Of a stretch of DNA of 64,000 nucleotides, positions 4,005 to 49,339 are shown piece by piece (within the stretch, counting starts at the first letter, position 1; every line of letters starts with the position of its first letter). Below the pieces are notes generated by a model, which ran no database searches, was not told where the DNA came from, and saw nothing but the letters and a program-made list of their open reading frames with translations. A program made the translations under genes and the position numbers. The stretch comes from Collinsella aerofaciens (GTDB lineage Bacteria; Actinomycetota; Coriobacteriia; Coriobacteriales; Coriobacteriaceae), in assembly GCF_020181355.1 (NCBI RefSeq), contig NZ_CP084004.1, positions 806,001-870,000 on the forward strand, in the 5' to 3' direction.

Positions 4005-5417
4005 TTATGCCTCGTCGTCCTCGTGCAGACGGCGGCGATAATCGGCGGCCCAGCCCTCAATATTTACCTGACGGGCGCGGCCCAGACCGAGTGCGTCGGC
4101 CGGAACCGGCTCGGTGATGACGGAGCCGGCGGCCACGAGCGCACCGTCGCCAATCTGGGCGGGCGCGACCATCATGGTGTCGGAACCGATGAAGGCATCC
4201 TTGCCGATGACGGTCTTGTGCTTGTGGACGCCGTCGTAGTTGCAGGTGATGGAGCCCGCGCCCACGTTGACGCCGGAGCCCATGGTGGTGTCGCCGATGT
4301 AGGACAGGTGGGGCACCTTGGAACCCTCGCCGATCGTGGACTTCTTGATCTCCACGTGCGTGCCGGCCTTGGAGCCGTCGAGCATGTGGGTGCCCGGGCG
4401 CAGGTAGGCGCGCGGGCCGCAGTCGACGCCGTTCTCGATGACGGCCTCGATGGCGATGGTCTCATCGATGGTGCAGCCGCTGCCGACGGTGGTGTCGGTG
4501 AGGCGACTGTTGGGGCCGAGCTGGCACTCCTCGCCCACGGTGACGTGACCGATCAGATGCGTCTGCGGCCACACGATGGTGTCGCGGCCGATGACGGCAT
4601 CGGGGCCGATCCAGGCCTGCGTGGGGTCGATGAAGGTAACGCCCTCGGCCATCCAGTGCTCGTTGATGCGGTCGCGCGCGATGGCGGTGAGCTGCGCGAG
4701 CTGGATGCGGCTGTTGACGCCCAGGCCGTCGCGGTAGTCGTCGCAGTGGAAGATGGAGACTGCCTGGCCGTGGCCCTTGAGGATCTCGAGCATGTCGGGC
4801 AGATAGTACTCGGACTGCGCGTTGTCGTTGCCGATCTCGTCAATGTGCGCGGCGAGCTGCGCGCCGTCGAAGGCGTAGCAGCCGGCGTTGCACTCGAGCA
4901 GCGTGGCGGCCTGCTCGGGTGTGCAGTCCTTCTGCTCGATGATGCGTTCGATCTGGCCGTCGGCACCCAGCTTGATGCGGCCGTAGCCGAAGGGGTCGGG
5001 CGGGGTCATGGTCATGACGGTGCAGGCGAGCTCGCCGGTGGCGACGGTCTGCGCGAACTTGGCGACGGTGTCGGCGGTGATGAGCGGCAGGTCGCCGTTG
5101 AGCACGACGACGGGGCCTTGCGTGATGCCGCAGGCCTCGAGCGCGACCTTCACGGCGTGACCGGTGCCCAGGCGCTCGGTCTGCTCAACGCACTCGACCT
5201 TGGTGGCGCTGTTGGCATAGGCGCCGTCGATGAGGGCGCGCATCTCGTCGGCGTGGCTGCCGATGACGACCACGACGCGGCTGCAGCCGGCCTTGATGGT
5301 GGCGTCGACGATCCACTGGACCATGGGCTTGCCCAGGATCTTGTGCGAAACCTTGCAGTGGTTCGACTTCATGCGGGTGCCCTCGCCGGCAGCGAGGATA
5401 ATTGCGGTTGCGTCCAT
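4005..5417 (-). CDS. glmU: Bifunctional GlmU: N-acetylglucosamine-1-P uridyltransferase / glucosamine-1-P acetyltransferase
   Basis: GlmU acetylates glucosamine 1-phosphate and joins it to UTP, giving UDP-GlcNAc for peptidoglycan. The protein is about 470 residues. The N-terminal nucleotidyltransferase opens with ATAIILAAGEGTRMKS and has LNGDLPLI. The C-terminal left-handed beta-helix is visible as hexapeptide repeats (IGEGSKVPHLSYIGD, MGSGVNVGAGSITCNYDG) from about residue 270 on. The open frame extends further upstream, but I start at 5417, where an AGGAG site sits eight bases before an ATG opening the conserved MDATAIILA. The added upstream residues would be unrelated to GlmU. Confidence 0.96.
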   Translation of the reverse strand: MDATAIILAAGEGTRMKSNHCKVSHKILGKPMVQWIVDATIKAGCSRVVVVIGSHADEMRALIDGAYANSATKVECVEQTERLGTGHAVKVALEACGITQGPVVVLNGDLPLITADTVAKFAQTVATGELACTVMTMTPPDPFGYGRIKLGADGQIERIIEQKDCTPEQAATLLECNAGCYAFDGAQLAAHIDEIGNDNAQSEYYLPDMLEILKGHGQAVSIFHCDDYRDGLGVNSRIQLAQLTAIARDRINEHWMAEGVTFIDPTQAWIGPDAVIGRDTIVWPQTHLIGHVTVGEECQLGPNSRLTDTTVGSGCTIDETIAIEAVIENGVDCGPRAYLRPGTHMLDGSKAGTHVEIKKSTIGEGSKVPHLSYIGDTTMGSGVNVGAGSITCNYDGVHKHKTVIGKDAFIGSDTMMVAPAQIGDGALVAAGSVITEPVPADALGLGRARQVNIEGWAADYRRRLHEDDEA

Positions 5418-5610
5418 GTGATCTCCTGTTACGTTATAGAGACGTGTGTTTGGAAACGATACACGGCGCAATATGATACCGCAGGCATATGTTGAGCGCG
5501 TAGCGATTGGCTCATGGCGGCCGATGTCGGTGCCGCCGGCGTGGCGTTTGCGCTGCTTGCGTGCGGCGTTGGCGGTGCTGCGGAGCTGTCGTTTGAGCGA
5601 GGGGACGGGG

Positions 5611-6504
5611 GTGCCCGTGGACAACATACAAGAGGAGTTTGGCGGCGAGCCCGTCGCGGCATTCTCGATGTCGCATCCGGCTGTGCCGGCCCTCTACATG
5701 GTGCTGACGCTGGGGCTCACCATGTTCTCGATGCAGCCGGTGCTGATTGCGCTGTCACTTGCGGGCGGGCTGGCGTATGGATTTGCGACGCGCGGGGCTG
5801 CCCGCACGCTGGGCGCACTCCGCTGGCAGCTGCCGGTGATTTTGATTATCGCGCTGGTCAATCCGCTGTTTAGCGCCTCGGGCTCGACGGAGCTGTTCCG
5901 TATTGGCATGCGCGCGGTGTATCTGGAAAGCATGGTATACGGCCTGTGCATGGGCGGGCTGTTTGTGGCGAGCGTGCTGTGGTTTGAGGCCGCGGCGTCG
6001 ATGCTCGAATACGACAAGGTGCTCGCGCTGCTGGGCAATGCCGCACCGGTGATTGCGCTCATGATCTCGATGTGCATGAGGCTTATCCCGCAGTTTTTAC
6101 GCCGCGGTCGTACGGTGCTGGCGGTGCAGGATGCGATTGATGTGCCGGGCCGCGCGCCCACCGATCCCGTGCGATCGCGCCTGCGGGCGTCGAGCGTGTT
6201 GATGGGCTGGGGCATGGAAGATTCGCTGGAGCGTGCGGACGCCATGCGCTCCCGTGGGTGGGGCGCCGCGACGCGTCGAACGACGTATGCGCGGTATCGG
6301 CTGGGGCGCGGCGATGTTGCCGCGCTGGTTGGACTTGCGCTGTTTGGCATGGCCACGACGGCAGTGGCGTGGACTGCGACGATGCAGTATTCGTTTTACC
6401 CGCAACTATCGGTGCCGGCGCCGTGGCTGGGCTATGTCGTGTACGCTGCCTGGATGATGCTGCCTTGCGCGTCGCACGCGATTGATGAGAAGAGGTTTGG
6501 CTGA
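5611..6504 (+). CDS. ecfT: ECF transporter transmembrane component (EcfT/CbiQ family)
   Basis: EcfT is the membrane scaffold that couples the two ATPases of an energy-coupling-factor importer to its substrate-binding S protein. The translated region has about six hydrophobic segments and the family signature near the C-terminal third, ADAMRSRGWG, matching the ARxxRG coupling motifs. The stop overlaps the start of the ATPase gene (TGATG), so the two are translationally coupled. The start is uncertain: GTG at 5611 follows a GAGGGGACGGGG stretch; GTG 5617 and ATG 5668 are alternatives. The open frame continues upstream to 5446, but that part is arginine-rich with no sign of coding. Confidence 0.85.
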   Translation: MPVDNIQEEFGGEPVAAFSMSHPAVPALYMVLTLGLTMFSMQPVLIALSLAGGLAYGFATRGAARTLGALRWQLPVILIIALVNPLFSASGSTELFRIGMRAVYLESMVYGLCMGGLFVASVLWFEAAASMLEYDKVLALLGNAAPVIALMISMCMRLIPQFLRRGRTVLAVQDAIDVPGRAPTDPVRSRLRASSVLMGWGMEDSLERADAMRSRGWGAATRRTTYARYRLGRGDVAALVGLALFGMATTAVAWTATMQYSFYPQLSVPAPWLGYVVYAAWMMLPCASHAIDEKRFG

Positions 6505-39312: not shown

Positions 39313-40686
39313 ATGGACATAACCATCTCCCTTATCACCACCCTCGTTTTGACCCTCATCAACGGCTACTTCTCTATGTCCGAGATGGCGCTCACCACGG
39401 CCAAGCGCGCCGTGTTGGAGCACGAGGCCGAGGAAGGCGACAAGCGCGCCGAGCGTGCCATTAAGCTGGCTGCCGACTCCGACCAGCTGCTCGCCACCAT
39501 CCAGGTCGCCATCACGCTCGTGGGCTTCGCCTCGTCCGCCGTCGCCTCGACGAGTCTGTCCGACCCGCTCGCCACGTGGCTCATGAGCTTTGGCATCGCG
39601 CCGCTCTCCGCCATCGCGCGCGGCCTGGCGCCGGTCATCATCACCGTCGCGGTCGCCTTCGTGTCCATCGTGATCGGCGAGCTCGTCCCCAAGCGCATCG
39701 GCCTGGCCAATGCCGAGGGCGTGTCCAAGCAGGTCGTGGGACCGTTGTCGTTTTTCCAAAAGATCGCCCGTCCGCTCGTGTGGCTGACCGGCGCCTGCTC
39801 CGATGGCCTGGCCCGCATCCTGCGCATCAAGAGCGCCGACGACCGCCAAAACGTCTCGGAAGAAGAGATCAAGTACATGGTCTCGGAGCAGGACGACCTG
39901 CTCGACGAGGAAAAGCGTATGATCCACGAGATCTTTGACTTGGGCGATACCGTTGCCCGCGAGGTCATGGTGCCGCGCGTGGACACCACCATGTGCGAGG
40001 ACGACGAGACGGTCGCCGACGTGCTGTCCACCATGCGCCAGACCGGCTTCAGCCGCATCCCCGTCTATCACGAGGATCCCGACAACGTCGCCGGCATTGC
40101 GCACATCAAGGACCTGATCCAACCCGCGCTCGACGGCAAGGGTGACCAGCCCATCGCCGGCTTTTTGCGCGACGCCACCTTTGTGCCCGACACCAAGGAC
40201 ATCCTGCCGCTACTGTCCGAGATGCAGACCTCGCACGACCAGATCGTGGTGGTCGTGGACGAGTACGGCGGCACGGCCGGCATTATCACCATCGAGGATA
40301 TCGTCGAGGAGATCGTCGGCGAGATCGAGGACGAGTTCGACCCCGACAACAAGTACCTCACGCGCCTTTCGCGCCGCGAGTGGCTCGTTGATGGGCGTTT
40401 TTCGTGCGATGACGCGATTGAGCTTGGTTGGCCGCTCGAGGAAAGCGATGATTATGAGACCATCGCCGGCTGGATTTTGGAGCTTTGCGACTCGGTGCCC
40501 GACATCGGAGAGGTGTTTGAGGTCGCGGGGTACAAGTTTAAAGTTCAGTCGATGCGTGGCCAGCGCATCTCGCTCATTCGCGTGATCGCTCCGGCCGAAA
40601 CCGATAAGAAGGATTCCGAGTCTTCGGCAGAGAAGCCGGCGGCGTCGGGTGCGGGCTCTGTGGATCCGCACGATGGCGACGAGTAG
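39313..40686 (+). CDS. CNNM/CorC-family protein (DUF21 - CBS pair - transporter-associated domain)
   Basis: A 457-residue protein with a DUF21 membrane domain (1-~190; NGYFSMSEMALTTAKR, then IVIGELVPKRIGL), two CBS domains (~205-335; REVMVPRVDTTM, VDEYGGTAGIITIEDIVEE) and a C-terminal CorC/HlyC domain (~350-440). Members are now linked to magnesium or other cation efflux and homeostasis, which would fit the magnesium genes 4-7 kb downstream. The last ~30 residues are polar and low-complexity. It is followed 24 bases later by the CphA-N-like gene. Confidence 0.9.
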   Translation: MDITISLITTLVLTLINGYFSMSEMALTTAKRAVLEHEAEEGDKRAERAIKLAADSDQLLATIQVAITLVGFASSAVASTSLSDPLATWLMSFGIAPLSAIARGLAPVIITVAVAFVSIVIGELVPKRIGLANAEGVSKQVVGPLSFFQKIARPLVWLTGACSDGLARILRIKSADDRQNVSEEEIKYMVSEQDDLLDEEKRMIHEIFDLGDTVAREVMVPRVDTTMCEDDETVADVLSTMRQTGFSRIPVYHEDPDNVAGIAHIKDLIQPALDGKGDQPIAGFLRDATFVPDTKDILPLLSEMQTSHDQIVVVVDEYGGTAGIITIEDIVEEIVGEIEDEFDPDNKYLTRLSRREWLVDGRFSCDDAIELGWPLEESDDYETIAGWILELCDSVPDIGEVFEVAGYKFKVQSMRGQRISLIRVIAPAETDKKDSESSAEKPAASGAGSVDPHDGDE

Positions 40687-44339: not shown

Positions 44340-44632
44340 TATGTCACGGATGCGTCAGCGTTTGGTATGCCTGCAATGTGCAGCGCATAAATTCGATGCC
44401 GCAGGGCGATGCTGATGCTATAGTTACTGCGGTTAATGAGGGTCAAGAGAAAGGTTACAGGTGAAATCCAAACCTCGACCATACAGTCGATGACCCCATG
44501 CAGGTGCTTTTTGCGCATGCACGGGGTGTAAGCGTCGAGCGGCGTGCCGCCCGCGCATGCGTATACATATCCAGAAGCCCCCGGACGCCGCACGCGCGGC
44601 CGCGTTCGGAGGAATAATGATGGGGAGCACCA
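44340..44632 (+). promoter_or_regulatory. Long leader of the magnesium operon with hairpins and a short upstream ORF
   Basis: About 290 bases between genes. CCCCATGCA (44494-44502) pairs with TGCACGGGG (44518-44526) around a T-rich loop, next to shorter TCGAC/GTCGA stems, so the message could fold extensively. I could not match it to the M-box or other known magnesium riboswitches. GGAGG at 44608-44612 serves a ten-codon ORF (44617-44649, MMGSTIELSE) that overlaps the gene start in another frame. Confidence 0.45.
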
Positions 44633-46477
44633 TTGAATTATCTGAGTGAGATGCTCAAATTGCCGGTCTTGGACGTCGATGGCGAAAAGCTCGGCGTGGT
44701 CAACGATTTTGGTATTGCTACCGGCGAAGTTTTTCCACACGTGACGTCGCTCGCGTTCCGCGGTCCCGGCAAGACGCCGTTTATGATCAGCTGGCGCAAA
44801 TGGGTCGACCGTATCGACGAGACGGGTGTACACCTTAAGACGTCGGCCACCGAAATCCGTTTTTCGTACCTGCAGCCGACCGAACTCTTGCTTGCCCGCG
44901 ACGTGCTCAACAAGCAGATTGTCGACACGCAGGGCATGAAGGTCGTGCGCGTAAACGACATCAAGTTTTCCATGTCGGGCGAAAACCAGCTGCGCCTGCT
45001 GGGCGCCGAGGTCGGTGCCCGCGGTCTGCTACGCGCCATCAGCCCCGCGCTCGAGCATATCGTCGAAGGCTTTATGAAGCACCTGGGCAAGCCGCTCAGT
45101 GAGGACATCATCGCTTGGTCCTACATGGACCTGCTCGACCGCTCGACCAAGAACATTCAACTCTCGGTGTCGCACAAGACGCTCGGCGAGCTGCACCCTG
45201 CCGACATCGCCGACATTATCGAGCAGCTCGACCCGCGCCTGCGTGCGCAGGTGTTTGCGCAGCTCGATACTGCCCAGGCCGCCGAGGCCATCTCGGAGTT
45301 CGATGACGACGAGCTTATGACCGAGATGCTCGAGGGCCTGTCCGATACCGACGCATCGTCGATGCTGGCCATGATGGACCCGGACGACGCTGCCGACCTG
45401 ATCGACGAACTCGATTATGAGAAGGCCGAGAAGCTCCTGCGCCTGATGGGCGTCAAGGAGGAGAAGGCGATTCGTAATCTGCTGGGCTACGAGGACAACA
45501 CCGCCGGCCGCATCATGACCTCGGAGTTTGTCTCGCTGCCCGCCACGGCAACGGTCGGTGACGCCATCGAGGCGATTCGCAAGCTCGACGAGGACTTTGA
45601 GAGCGTCTATTACGTCTATACCGAGGACCCGAGCGGCATGCTGACGGGCGTGCTTTCGCTGCGCACGCTGATCGTGGCCGACCGCGACGCCACGCTGGGC
45701 CAGCTCGCCTATCGCGATCTGGTCTACGTGTCACCCGACGAGGACCAGGAAGACGTGACGGACGAGATGACCAAGTACGACCTGGTTGCCATCCCTGTCT
45801 GCGACGAGAACCGTCATATCCTGGGCATCGTGACCTTCGACGACGCCATGGACGTTATTGCCGAGGAGCATCAGGAGGACCTGCAGATCGCCGGTGTCGG
45901 CTCGGGCGATAGCGCGTCGGACGACTCGACGAACGTGCTCAGCTGGTTCGTGCATCGTCAGTACTGGGTCGTCGTGTGGGGCATCGCCTCGTGCATCATG
46001 GCAACGGTGCTGGGGACGGCGCTGGGCTCCGCGCATTTGGTGGTGTTCCCCATGTGCGCCATGCCGCTCGTGTTGCTGGCTGCCTCGCGTATGGTGTCGT
46101 TCGTCAAGAACTACTTCCTGGAGTATGACGGTCACGACGACGAGCCCAAGCCGTATCTGGGGTTCTTCTTCCAGAGCACGGGCATGGGCCTGATTCTGTC
46201 ACTCGTGACCTATCTGTGCGCCCAGCTGGTGCGCACCGCTGCGTTCCCCGATGCGCCCATGTTTGAGGAGCAACTCTTTACCGGGTGCTTTAATATCGCT
46301 GCCATCATTTGCCTGGTTGGCAACATGAGCGCCGTGATTTACCTGATGGTGCTGTTCTGGCGTGACGAGCATGACCTCAACACGTCGGGCACCGCCATGA
46401 ACGTTATTGCCGTCATGATCTCGTGCGTAGCGTACTGCGCCGCTGCGGTGCTGCTCACCATGTCGGTCATGGGTTAG
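44633..46477 (+). CDS. MgtE-like protein: PRC-barrel, MgtE_N, CBS pair, divergent 5-helix membrane domain
   Basis: A 614-residue protein. The N-terminus (YLSEMLKLPVLDVDGEKLGVV) looks like a PRC-barrel module; ELHPADIADIIEQLDPRLRA starts a MgtE_N superhelix (~180-275); GRIMTSEFVSLPATATVGDA begins a CBS pair (~290-410). These parts sense Mg2+ in MgtE. The C-terminal ~165 residues have five hydrophobic helices but lack the GNxGxQ and other pore motifs of MgtE, so transport is doubtful. The start is a TTG with GGGAG five bases before; no ATG fits this frame. The Nramp-type gene follows eight bases after the stop, suggesting that this protein regulates or partners that transporter. Confidence 0.8.
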   Translation: MNYLSEMLKLPVLDVDGEKLGVVNDFGIATGEVFPHVTSLAFRGPGKTPFMISWRKWVDRIDETGVHLKTSATEIRFSYLQPTELLLARDVLNKQIVDTQGMKVVRVNDIKFSMSGENQLRLLGAEVGARGLLRAISPALEHIVEGFMKHLGKPLSEDIIAWSYMDLLDRSTKNIQLSVSHKTLGELHPADIADIIEQLDPRLRAQVFAQLDTAQAAEAISEFDDDELMTEMLEGLSDTDASSMLAMMDPDDAADLIDELDYEKAEKLLRLMGVKEEKAIRNLLGYEDNTAGRIMTSEFVSLPATATVGDAIEAIRKLDEDFESVYYVYTEDPSGMLTGVLSLRTLIVADRDATLGQLAYRDLVYVSPDEDQEDVTDEMTKYDLVAIPVCDENRHILGIVTFDDAMDVIAEEHQEDLQIAGVGSGDSASDDSTNVLSWFVHRQYWVVVWGIASCIMATVLGTALGSAHLVVFPMCAMPLVLLAASRMVSFVKNYFLEYDGHDDEPKPYLGFFFQSTGMGLILSLVTYLCAQLVRTAAFPDAPMFEEQLFTGCFNIAAIICLVGNMSAVIYLMVLFWRDEHDLNTSGTAMNVIAVMISCVAYCAAAVLLTMSVMG

Positions 46478-46485
46478 GTGGTCGC

Positions 46486-47748
46486 GTGCAAAATACCAAG
46501 CAAAAGTCGGGCACCAAGCAAAAGTTGACCATCGCGGCCATCTTTGGCGCTATGGGTCCCGGTCTGCTGGCGGCGCTTTCGGGCAATGACGCCGGCGGCA
46601 TTGCAACGTATTCCAGCGCGGGCGCCAGCTATGGCTACAAGATGCTCTGGATGCTTCCCGTCATGACTGTGCTGCTCATCGTGACGCAGGAGACCGCGGC
46701 GCGCTGCGGCTGCGTCACGGGCAAGGGCCTGGCATCGCTCATTCGCGAGCGCTTTGGCGTGCGCAAGAGTGTACTTGCTATGGCGGCGCTGTTGATCGCC
46801 AACACGGCTGTGACCATTTCGGAGTTCGCGGGCATCGCCAGCGGCCTTGCTCTCTTTGGCGTGCCGGCGAGCATTTCGGTGCCGCTGGTGGCGCTGCTGG
46901 TGTGGATGCTTACCATGTCGGGCAGCTTCCAGCGCATCGAGAAGATTCTGCTGCTGGTGAGCTGCGTGTTCGTGACCTATATTGTCGCCGCGTTTATGGC
47001 TGGCCCCAACTGGGGTGAGGTCGCGGTCGACCTGGTCGTGCCTAACATTCAAAATGACCCCAGCTACGTGTCGCTCGTGGTCGCAACGATCGGTACCACC
47101 ATCGCGCCGTGGATGATTTTCTTGGCGCAGAACAACGTGGTCGATAAGAACGCGGGCGAGGACGATATCGTGCTGCAGCGCATCGATACCGTGAGCGGCT
47201 CGCTTGCCGCCGATGTCATTGCCGGCTTTATTATCATCACGACCGGTACGGTGTTGTTCCCGGCGGGTATTCAGATTAGCGATGCTGCCGATGCCGCCCG
47301 CGCGTTGGAGCCTATTGCGGGTCAGTGGTCCACGGTACTGTTTGCCTCGGGCCTGGTCGCGGCGAGCTTCTTGGCTGCCTGTGTGCTGCCGGGCGTTACG
47401 TCGAGCGCTATCTGCGAGGCATTTGGCTGGGAGCGCGGTGCCGACCGCAGCTGGGACGAGGCTCCGGTCTATCGCGGCATCATTACGGCCATCATTGGTA
47501 TCTCTGCCGTGCTGGTGCTTATGCCCGGCGTCGATCTGTTCCAGATTATGATGACCTCGCAGGTCATCAATGGCGTGCTACTGCCCGTGGTTCTGGTGTT
47601 CCAGGTGGTTATTGCCGCTGACCGTCACATTATGGGTGCCAACCGCAACGGCCGCGTGTGGAATGTGCTCACTTGGGCGACTATCGGTGTGATTACGGTG
47701 CTCACGGTCGTCATGTTTGTTCTGCAGGCGATGGGCTACAGCGCTTAA
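46486..47748 (+). CDS. Nramp-related transporter, magnesium-type (NRMT-like)
   Basis: A 420-residue SLC11/Nramp-family membrane protein with 11 or so helices. The metal motif of helix 1, DPGN in Mn/Fe transporters, is D35-A-G-G38; the helix 6 motif MPH is replaced by A-P-W (TTIAPWMIFLAQNN, ~205). The loss of the Asn and of the soft-metal-selecting Met is the pattern described for Nramp-related Mg2+ transporters, first characterised from the coriobacterium Eggerthella lenta. Mg2+ as substrate is therefore a reasoned inference. I start at GTG 46486; the longer frame overlaps the MgtE-like gene. It shares a transcript with that gene and ends at a good terminator. Confidence 0.85.
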   Translation: MQNTKQKSGTKQKLTIAAIFGAMGPGLLAALSGNDAGGIATYSSAGASYGYKMLWMLPVMTVLLIVTQETAARCGCVTGKGLASLIRERFGVRKSVLAMAALLIANTAVTISEFAGIASGLALFGVPASISVPLVALLVWMLTMSGSFQRIEKILLLVSCVFVTYIVAAFMAGPNWGEVAVDLVVPNIQNDPSYVSLVVATIGTTIAPWMIFLAQNNVVDKNAGEDDIVLQRIDTVSGSLAADVIAGFIIITTGTVLFPAGIQISDAADAARALEPIAGQWSTVLFASGLVAASFLAACVLPGVTSSAICEAFGWERGADRSWDEAPVYRGIITAIIGISAVLVLMPGVDLFQIMMTSQVINGVLLPVVLVFQVVIAADRHIMGANRNGRVWNVLTWATIGVITVLTVVMFVLQAMGYSA

Positions 47749-47833: not shown

Positions 47834-49339
47834 GGTGGCGCGCGCAGACGTGGTGTAAGAGCGTCCTGAGGTCCGTCGCTGCAAGTCCCGATATTACTCC
47901 TTCTTGAGACCGCGCCTCTCGACTATCTCGTCCACTATCTCCCTGGCGCGCCGCCCGAGCGCGCGGCGCCTCCCCTCTGTCGGGGCCGGCCTGTCCGCGG
48001 GCTCGGCGAAGCCCTCGGCGGCCGAGGCCTCGGAGAACACGCGCTGCTGGGACCACTGTCCCTTGGTCTCCATGAGGCTCGCGCACGTCAGGCGCAGCAT
48101 CGACTCCCTCGAGGGGAAGGACTGCACGACCCTGTAGCGGCGCTTGATCTCGCGGTTGGCGCGCTCCTGGACGTTGTTGGTGCGGAGCTTGGCCCAGTGC
48201 GCCCTGGGGAAGGCCGTGAACGCCAGCGCGGAGTCCTCGGCCTGCTCGAAGACCTCGCCGGCCCTGGCGGACACCGACGCCACCCAGGGCGCCGCCTCGG
48301 CCCACACGCAGCGCGCGAGGTCGGGGTCGTCCTGGTAGACCGCGGCGTGCACGAGGTCCCTGACGGCCGCCTTGGAGTCCTCGGGCCTGCCCGAGCAGGC
48401 GCTCTGGAGGTTGCGCTGCAGGTGCGTCACGCAGCGCTGCCAGGCGCAGCCCTGGAACAGGCGCGAGACGGCGGCCACGAGCCCGGCGTGGCTGTCGGAG
48501 ACCACGAGGCGAACGCCGGCCAGCCCGCGCTCGCGCAGCCCGCCGAGGAATGCCGCCCAGGAGTCCTCGCTCTCGGTGTCGACCACGTCGCAGCCCAGGA
48601 AGTGCTTGCGCCCGTCGGCGCCCAGCCCGATCGCGGTCACGACGCCCTGCGAGACGACCGACGAGCCGACCCTGCAGCTCATGTAGGTGGCGTCGAGCCA
48701 CAGGTAGCAGCACGGCGTGCCCGACAGGTCGCGGCGGCGGAACTCCGCCACCTCGGCGTCGAGGTCGGAGCAGAGGCTCGAGACCTCCGAGCTCGACAGC
48801 GAGGATATGCCCAGCTTGGACGCCACGCGCTCGACCTTGCGGGTGGACACGCCGCATACGTACATCTCCTGCACGATGGCGGCCACCGAGGTGTCGACGC
48901 GCGACCATCGCGCGAGCATGCCCTCGGGGTAGTAGGTGCCGTGCCTGAGCTTGGGTATCTCGAGCTCCACGTCGCCCACGGCGGTCTTGAGCGACCTGGG
49001 GCGGTAGCCGTTGCGGCTGTTCTCCCTGCCGTCGCTGCGCTCGTTGCGGCTCGCGCCGCACATCTGCTGGGCCTCGGAGTCCATCAGCGCGTTCATCACG
49101 CTGCCCAGCACCCTGCACGCGAACTCGCGCGCGTCGCCGCACTCCTGCCAAAGCCTCGCCGCCTCGAGGGCCTCGTCGCGGCCGAGGCGCAGTACACTCT
49201 CTTCTTGGGGCATCGCCTTTCCTTCCATTCGTCACCTTCATTACTCCAACGACGAATTCTAGGCGGTGTCCCCTCCCTTTCAAGAAAGGGCGGAGGCGGG
49301 GCATGCCCCGCCTCTTACACCACATCTCTGCGCGCTACC
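47834..49339. mobile_element. Complete IS256-family insertion sequence with 8-bp target duplication
   Basis: A 1506-bp element. The 26-bp terminal repeats (47834-47859 and 49314-49339) match at 22 positions, ending GTGGTGTAAG inward. The host sequence TAGCAATG is duplicated at 47826-47833 and 49340-49347, the 8-bp size usual for the family. It holds one intact transposase, so it may still be active. It landed at the edge of the inverted-repeat element at 49348-49571. Confidence 0.92.
47894..49228 (-). CDS. IS256-family (mutator-type) transposase
   Basis: A 444-residue transposase. Catalytic acids fit the family: Asp in YLWLDATYM (~175), Asp in RLVVSDSHAGL (~240) and Glu in VQERANREIKRRY (~340). 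The segment CAWQRCVTHLQRNL between the last two is the diagnostic mutator signature C-x2-H. The C-terminal ~60 residues are Ala/Arg-rich. No frameshift or stop interrupts it. AAGG lies eight bases before the chosen ATG; an ATG at 49213 is an alternative. Confidence 0.95.
   Translation of the reverse strand: MEGKAMPQEESVLRLGRDEALEAARLWQECGDAREFACRVLGSVMNALMDSEAQQMCGASRNERSDGRENSRNGYRPRSLKTAVGDVELEIPKLRHGTYYPEGMLARWSRVDTSVAAIVQEMYVCGVSTRKVERVASKLGISSLSSSEVSSLCSDLDAEVAEFRRRDLSGTPCCYLWLDATYMSCRVGSSVVSQGVVTAIGLGADGRKHFLGCDVVDTESEDSWAAFLGGLRERGLAGVRLVVSDSHAGLVAAVSRLFQGCAWQRCVTHLQRNLQSACSGRPEDSKAAVRDLVHAAVYQDDPDLARCVWAEAAPWVASVSARAGEVFEQAEDSALAFTAFPRAHWAKLRTNNVQERANREIKRRYRVVQSFPSRESMLRLTCASLMETKGQWSQQRVFSEASAAEGFAEPADRPAPTEGRRRALGRRAREIVDEIVERRGLKKE

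Follow-up and report, generated by a model that had tools for sequence, protein, structure and literature searches.

Nramp-related transporters that adjoin a relative of the MgtE magnesium channel have been described before: Shin et al. reported in 2014 that most NrmT genes lie beside a gene homologous to the cytoplasmic domain of MgtE, for which they speculated on cytoplasmic feedback and offered chaperone activity as an alternative (PMC4072509). Here we describe a locus of this kind in a 64,000-nucleotide stretch of the Collinsella aerofaciens genome (contig NZ_CP084004.1; hereafter the window, to which all coordinates refer), where a gene for a putative Mg2+ sensor derived from MgtE is followed on the plus strand by a gene for an NRMT-type Nramp relative. 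A first-pass annotation of this DNA knew of no described system of this form, which the 2014 work corrects, as both the sensor-NrmT pair and the feedback idea are already published there. What goes beyond that work is the decayed channel domain of the sensor, the exchange of its partner for the pump MgtA, and a leader open reading frame (ORF) with pairing to the Shine-Dalgarno (SD) sequence.

Like the NrmT/MgtE-N pairs of C. acetobutylicum (Ca_c0685) and A. capsulatum (Acp2976-2977), the window holds a gene with the MgtE cytosolic domain next to an Nramp-related transporter; unlike in those pairs, which often lie behind an M-box and whose partner is described as a cytoplasmic-domain homologue, the window operon has a leader ORF instead and its partner keeps an apparently pore-dead channel domain (PMC4072509). 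With EleNRMT (Ramanadane et al. 2022, PMC8806188) the window transporter has the NRMT clade and the binding-site motif in common; the passages on EleNRMT mention no partner protein, and the words "genome" and "operon" are absent from the text of that paper. The MgtE channel (2yvx; PMC5882242) shares with the sensor MgtE_N, CBS, a homologous membrane domain and most of the Mg2+-site acids, but the sensor carries an added N-terminal PRC/linker region and has neither the filter nor the pore aspartate. The same sensor adjoins the P-type ATPase MgtA or is fused to it at four loci (L035, L175, L123 and L233), and no PRC/MgtE_N/CBS extension of MgtA appeared among the titles and abstract starts listed from the open-licence literature. 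Nor did those listed for PRC with Nramp or MgtE-like genes, for NRMT follow-ups or for a leader peptide in these genera touch on the new points.

Our best reading, to which we assign a probability of roughly 65 %, is that the locus encodes a Mg2+ uptake module in which a pore-dead MgtE serves as a portable feedback subunit for NRMT and, elsewhere, for MgtA. The first gene would descend from an MgtE channel, with the pore lost and the cytosolic Mg2+ sensor retained; apparently still present are the acids through which MgtE couples Mg2+ binding to its membrane helices. The sensor would sit beside NRMT in the membrane and, in a Mg2+-replete cytosol, would bind Mg2+ and close or slow NRMT, as MgtE closes itself. 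In the window's family and its relatives (f1, f2 and so on are the family labels of our genome search; judged by named loci, f2 should be Atopobiaceae with Atopobium and Olsenella, and f3 Eggerthellaceae with Eggerthella, Gordonibacter and Slackia) expression of the pair would be set by a leader ORF, together with RNA pairings in which the SD of the sensor gene is covered; we infer that this leader senses Mg2+, and likewise the direction of the switch. The wider proposal, in which a pore-dead MgtE is a portable Mg2+-gating subunit both for NRMT (as dead domain, single helix or soluble form) and for MgtA (as neighbour or fusion) and in which, in addition, a Mg2+-sensing leader-peptide attenuator replaced the M-box in the Coriobacteriales families f1, f2 and f3, is put forward tentatively, at slightly under even odds. 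NRMT uptake is reported to be proton-independent (PMC9606685), so that a valve of this kind would be necessary for a passive carrier; the occurrence of the sensor with two unrelated transporters suggests that it acts as a portable safety valve in magnesium uptake. The 2014 work did not settle what the MgtE-like gene does beside NrmT. With the MgtA fusion and the lost channel domain this role can be put to a direct test, and both suggest that Mg2+ gating can pass from one transporter fold to another, unrelated one.

The sensor gene (44633..46477, plus strand) encodes 614 amino acids and begins with TTG, where relatives show ATG or GTG at the aligned site. Its product consists of a PRC domain (residues 2-61), an MgtE_N domain (residues 187-289; 45191..45499, plus strand) in which D251, the counterpart of MgtE D91, is invariant, a CBS part, and five hydrophobic segments in the C-terminal part (simple hydropathy scan). 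In the Pfam scan PF03448 (86 bits) and PF00571 scored above cut-off, PF01769, the MgtE membrane domain, was not reached, and the NCBIfam equivalog TIGR00400 was missed with 220 bits at a cut-off of 232.75. Eight bases downstream on the same strand follows the NRMT gene (46486..47748; 420 amino acids, GTG start), the product of which matches the Nramp family with 296 bits. Its best match among solved structures, with 500 bits (E 4e-149) ahead of the next best at 107 bits, is 7qia, which we take to be the EleNRMT protein. The metal-site motifs read GNDAGGI and TTIAPW and thus show the DxxG and TxxA that define NRMT proteins in place of DPGN and MPH (PMC8806188), and 7QIA is called an NRMT structure in PMC9606685. 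By homology the second gene is an NRMT importer, with Mg2+ transport as the predicted function. The ORFs, domain matches and motifs bear out the two-gene module of the first-pass annotation, with a PRC/MgtE_N/CBS protein followed after eight bases by an Nramp relative of the magnesium type (D-A-G-G and A-P-W). The module start that it placed at 44617 has to be moved to 44633: the ATGATG at 44617 lies in another frame and runs for only ten codons before a stop. This second short ORF (ATGATG...TGA, 44617-44649) overlaps the sensor start and is present in close relatives (L003-L016), and it is absent from the other same-family leaders displayed.

The genome itself gave no match to MgtE or CorA, nor to MgtA at E<=1e-150, so that NRMT is the only Mg2+ importer found among the families tested; its other Nramp has the DPGN and MPH motifs and scores as MntH-like. 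Two further Nramp-like proteins of Coriobacteriia (L038:4291-5571 and L039:4107-5369), 30-32% identical to NRMT, carry DDDPSGI and TTITPY and are probably an Nramp outgroup.

The evidence for a lost pore lies in the membrane domain (residues 425-614; 45905..46474, plus strand), which has no GGN and no equivalent of D432. Compared with genuine MgtE membrane domains by hhalign, it was matched with 95-97% probability over 171-177 columns, the values for five reference sequences of one alignment being 96-97% (P 2e-9 to 4e-11) over 174-177 columns; three NRMT stretches used as control gave less than 1% in the same comparison. Sister proteins of other Actinomycetota do reach PF01769 (L124 with 61 bits, L136 with 44 and L125 with 32), and the sisters L146 and L034 do not. 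Judged by these profiles, the domain is a decayed MgtE channel domain, homologous end to end; the first-pass annotation was right that pore motifs are missing, and the membrane domain that it called divergent is no foreign one but descends from MgtE. The GGN filter occurs in none of the 51 aligned sensor rows (one gapped there), and no row has an aspartate at the D432 site or up to two columns away from it (two gapped there); 49 rows have letters at both sites. Both features are also missing from 16 further outer relatives, and genuine MgtE proteins show GGN in 12/13 and the pore aspartate in 13/13 cases. The domain has been reduced further elsewhere: all ten f3 sensors keep a single helix and still have NRMT beside them, so the channel is not needed there, and the sensors L035 and L186, of one genus, have no membrane helix at all. 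Among the sensors, columns of the cytosolic part show a higher identity (0.67-0.77) than those of the membrane part (0.39).

The sensing part was compared with the Mg2+-site acids listed for MgtE (PMC5882242) in 49 five-helix sensors, with L066 (the broken sensor of G040) and near-copies of the window left out. The equivalents of D91, D247, E258 and D259 are conserved in all 49, that of D250 is D or E in all 49, and that of E59 is E or D in 45. An unrooted tree of 85 sequences, from which L066 and L151 were left out, places the five-helix sensors, the one-helix forms, L035 and the MgtA fusion in one group (support 98/91), with the one-helix forms at 100/99 and genuine MgtE, separate from the sensor group, at 100/100. 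Soluble forms of other Actinomycetota fall outside the sensor group, and the branching beside MgtE is poorly supported.

Pairing of the two genes was surveyed in 148 Coriobacteriia genomes; the sensor was matched in 129 of them (E<=1e-90) and NRMT strongly in 127 (E<=6e-69). Sensor and NRMT are adjacent in 126 of the 127 NRMT-bearing genomes: in 125 the sensor gene comes first, on the strand of NRMT, and in one it lies directly downstream. In the last genome NRMT is a fragment at the end of a contig and the sensor is missing. Three genomes have the sensor without NRMT (G008, G014 and G144). Among 80 named-record loci, NRMT lies downstream of the sensor in 75, including nine with an extended NRMT ORF that overlaps the sensor, and upstream in one; MgtA lies upstream in two, one is a fusion and one ends at a contig edge. 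The pairing is far beyond chance, and the neighbourhood survey that the first-pass annotation had proposed thus found it conserved. Nine genomes (f9 and f12) have an MgtE match without NRMT, and GGN is present in all eight of those MgtE sequences that were read.

In other Coriobacteriia the same sensor adjoins or is fused to the unrelated Mg2+ pump MgtA, which suggests that it is portable. In G014 (L035) MgtA (TIGR01524 1151 bits, cut-off 611) is followed after 23 bases by a helix-free sensor, and in G415 (L175) MgtA likewise precedes the sensor, the MgtA piece being cut by the contig edge; the named records that match these loci are metagenome-assembled genomes (MAGs). L123 joins sensor (residues 1-412) and MgtA (435-1313; TIGR01524 1077 bits) in one ORF of 1317 residues, and L233, from another MAG and cut by the contig end, is a second such fusion. 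An assembly error behind the fusion was considered and rejected, because the two are only 64.7% identical over 1229 residues and share no DNA match. The membrane domain of the sensor is absent from the MgtA fusions. No further fusion appeared among the matches listed for 396 Coriobacteriia genomes, with two candidates scored per genome; the MgtA cases are few, most of them come from MAGs, and mis-binning of the L123 contig is possible. G144 and ten genomes of f6 and f7, 11 in all, lack any Nramp; eight of them carry the sensor, and all eight also have an MgtA match, some of them partial, which is weak evidence, since most f6 and f7 genomes have MgtA, including some without sensor (G006 and G416).

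The region ahead of the operon differs between families. Outside f1, f2 and f3, 21 of 24 Coriobacteriia loci carry an M-box at a distance of 200-330 nt before the operon. In other Actinomycetota bins the sensor has one upstream at 6 of 14 loci, and the sensor-NRMT pair of an Alicyclobacillus plasmid is likewise preceded by one. At L124 an M-box (4050-4217) is directly followed by a pseudo-MgtE (4218-6068) with no NRMT beside it. None of seven f1-f3 loci, the window included, has an M-box (RF00380), and the window leader gave no M-box or other Rfam element even at a relaxed threshold. In f1, f2 and f3 a leader ORF occupies the place that the M-box has in the other Coriobacteriia families; in the window it spans 44461..44493 (plus strand, GTG start) and encodes the conserved peptide MKSKPRPYSR*. 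The peptide takes the form MK(xK)PRPHS(R/S) in f1 and MKPRPHSR in f2, while start and stop codons vary and proline codons change synonymously. Of 396 genomes, 133 contain the leader DNA pattern, nearly always as a single copy; at least two of the matches look like chance, and the reversed pattern used as control was found in 15. In 58 of 63 f1 and f2 genomes with sensor the leader pattern stands on the sensor strand, 57-173 nt ahead of the sensor gene, and four of the other five carry leader variants, one of them read by eye; G144, which also lacks NRMT, has no leader ORF within 330 nt. The pattern precedes the sensor in one genome each of f81 and f82, and the pattern search gave no match in f83-f87. 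A related ORF, MKVRK(S/P)KPHSx*, was found in eight of ten f3 loci and with a longer spacer in a ninth (L086), and it occurs in 29 distinct leaders. A conserved short ORF with a ribosome-binding site thus stands before the operon, as in an attenuator, and is a newly recognized candidate for Mg2+ control in these bacteria, a major group in the gut.

In the Salmonella system, alternating prolines in mgtL couple leader translation to mgtA expression (PMC6460261). The window leader resembles mgtL/mgtP in being a short alternating-proline ORF before a Mg2+ importer, with stems that would compete (PMC6460261); it differs in its peptide, its phylum and its anti-SD, and thus translational rather than transcriptional, design. 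Moreover, the f3 leaders contain one or two prolines only, so that sensing of proline may not hold there and sensing by the peptide may.

Three pairings are predicted in the window leader, all on the plus strand. The 5' arm of stem A, GGGTCA (44440..44445), pairs with TGACCC at the stop of the leader ORF (44491-44496), and an anti-SD segment, GGTGCTTTTT (44503..44512), pairs with the SD region of the sensor gene, GGGGAGCACC (44622..44631), both in the minimum free energy (MFE) structure. Hairpin B (ACCCC...GGGGT, 44493..44527), which local folds place immediately behind the leader ORF, has bases in common with stem A and contains the anti-SD, and the three would compete with one another. In permutation tests, which do not remove shared ancestry, the energy of the own anti-SD/SD duplex beat that of permuted pairs with P=5e-5, the floor of 20,000 permutations, in each of three leader groups (21 of f1 type with GTG/TTG start, 18 of f2 type with ATG start, divided by start codon and not strictly by family, and 29 of f3 type). 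The longest anti-SD/SD complement gave P=0.0015 in the GTG/TTG group and 5e-5 in the other two. Joint changes of leader and SD include GGTGCTC/GAGCACC, GCGTGCTCC/GGAGCACGC and GGCGCT/AGCGCC, and ATTCCCTT/AAGGGAAT among f3-type leaders. For stem A, the own 5' arm pairs better with the own stop region than with those of others (P=5e-5; 39 leaders remained of 50 distinct ones once the near-copies from L003-L016 of that in the window had been reduced to three), and the stop codon tracks the stem, TGA or TAA following GGGTCA or GGGTTA. The window leader folds better than its shuffles (z -3.2); single-leader shuffles were weaker, with p<=0.05 in 24 of 50, and within the window species alone the leader/SD pairing does not beat shuffles. 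RNAalifold on a MAFFT alignment of 29 leaders returned only four pairs, since spacers vary, and permutation tests were used for this reason.

The feedback reading has to be weighed against three others. If the sensor were to conduct Mg2+ through an altered pore of its own, with NRMT as a further importer that works independently of it in the same operon, the retained membrane domain and full-length MgtE homology would be explained, as would the charged residues (R...D/E) in helix 2 that many lineages keep and the persistence of the sensor without NRMT in G144 and f6; the loss of filter and pore aspartate across the 51 sensor rows and 16 outer relatives, the one-helix f3 sensors beside NRMT and the absence of the domain from the MgtA fusions make this quite improbable. 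Somewhat better placed, though still unlikely, is a sensor that acts as Mg2+ buffer, chaperone or general Mg2+ reporter and is co-expressed with importers without acting on them directly, in line with the chaperone alternative of Shin et al. (PMC4072509) and with 15 genomes of other Actinomycetota (f32 and relatives) in which the sensor gene is unlinked from NRMT. A PRC-only protein of about 200 amino acids adjoins NRMT in those 15 genomes (15 of 16 strong NRMT matches; loci including L180-L183), and in the sixteenth, G265, NRMT lies beside the sensor. Against a buffer, chaperone or reporter role stand the in-frame MgtA fusion in two diverged proteins and the near-absolute adjacency to NRMT in Coriobacteriia, which point to direct action. 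L142, L144 and L145 have both the PRC-only protein and the sensor, and the PRC part may be a docking piece. That the module transports and senses Mn2+ instead of Mg2+ is suggested by the A. capsulatum NrmT with its adjacent MgtE fragment, which rescued Mn2+ uptake and Mg2+ uptake only weakly (PMC4072509); given the M-box before the operon in other Coriobacteriia families, 7qia as the closest solved match, a separate MntH-like Nramp in the genome, no other Mg2+ importer of three families, and a partner swap that goes to MgtA, we regard it as very improbable indeed.

Several observations weigh against the feedback reading itself, to which the unlinked sensors of f32 and its relatives also belong. 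Ca_c0685 and Ca_c3329 function without the MgtE-like gene, and co-expression of the A. capsulatum pair, whose Nramp is Mn-transporter-like, gave no better rescue (PMC4072509). The sensor is retained in G144 and in f6 genomes, which have no Nramp and in which it does not adjoin MgtA. Two of the sensing acids vary among the 49 sensors, the D95 equivalent being D in 30, E in 5 and A in 14, and that of D226 D in 29 and N in 20. The equivalents of E258 and D259 are partly lost in the one-helix sensors; being kept with the domain and partly lost without it, they also suggest that the dead domain still moves with Mg2+. On the RNA side, a ribosome paused on the leader prolines and thereby freeing the sensor SD was unsupported by equilibrium modelling: stalling had little effect, the SD being more open in 8 of 39 leaders and less open in 4, and the SD was masked in all states tested. 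Contact between sensor and NRMT, and gating through it, are what we infer, and this too counts on the negative side. The suggestion of the first-pass annotation that the sensor half of one family regulates a transporter of another gains from the conserved pair, the M-box of relatives and the MgtA cases, with gating as its conjectural part.

Two neighbouring genes complete the picture of the locus. A CNNM/CorC-type protein is encoded at 39313-40686, about 4 kb upstream of the module, and a similar-looking ORF stands at the matching place in G144 (L033:111-1484). Just downstream of the module, a transposase-like ORF, recognized by eye only, lies on the minus strand at 47894-49228.

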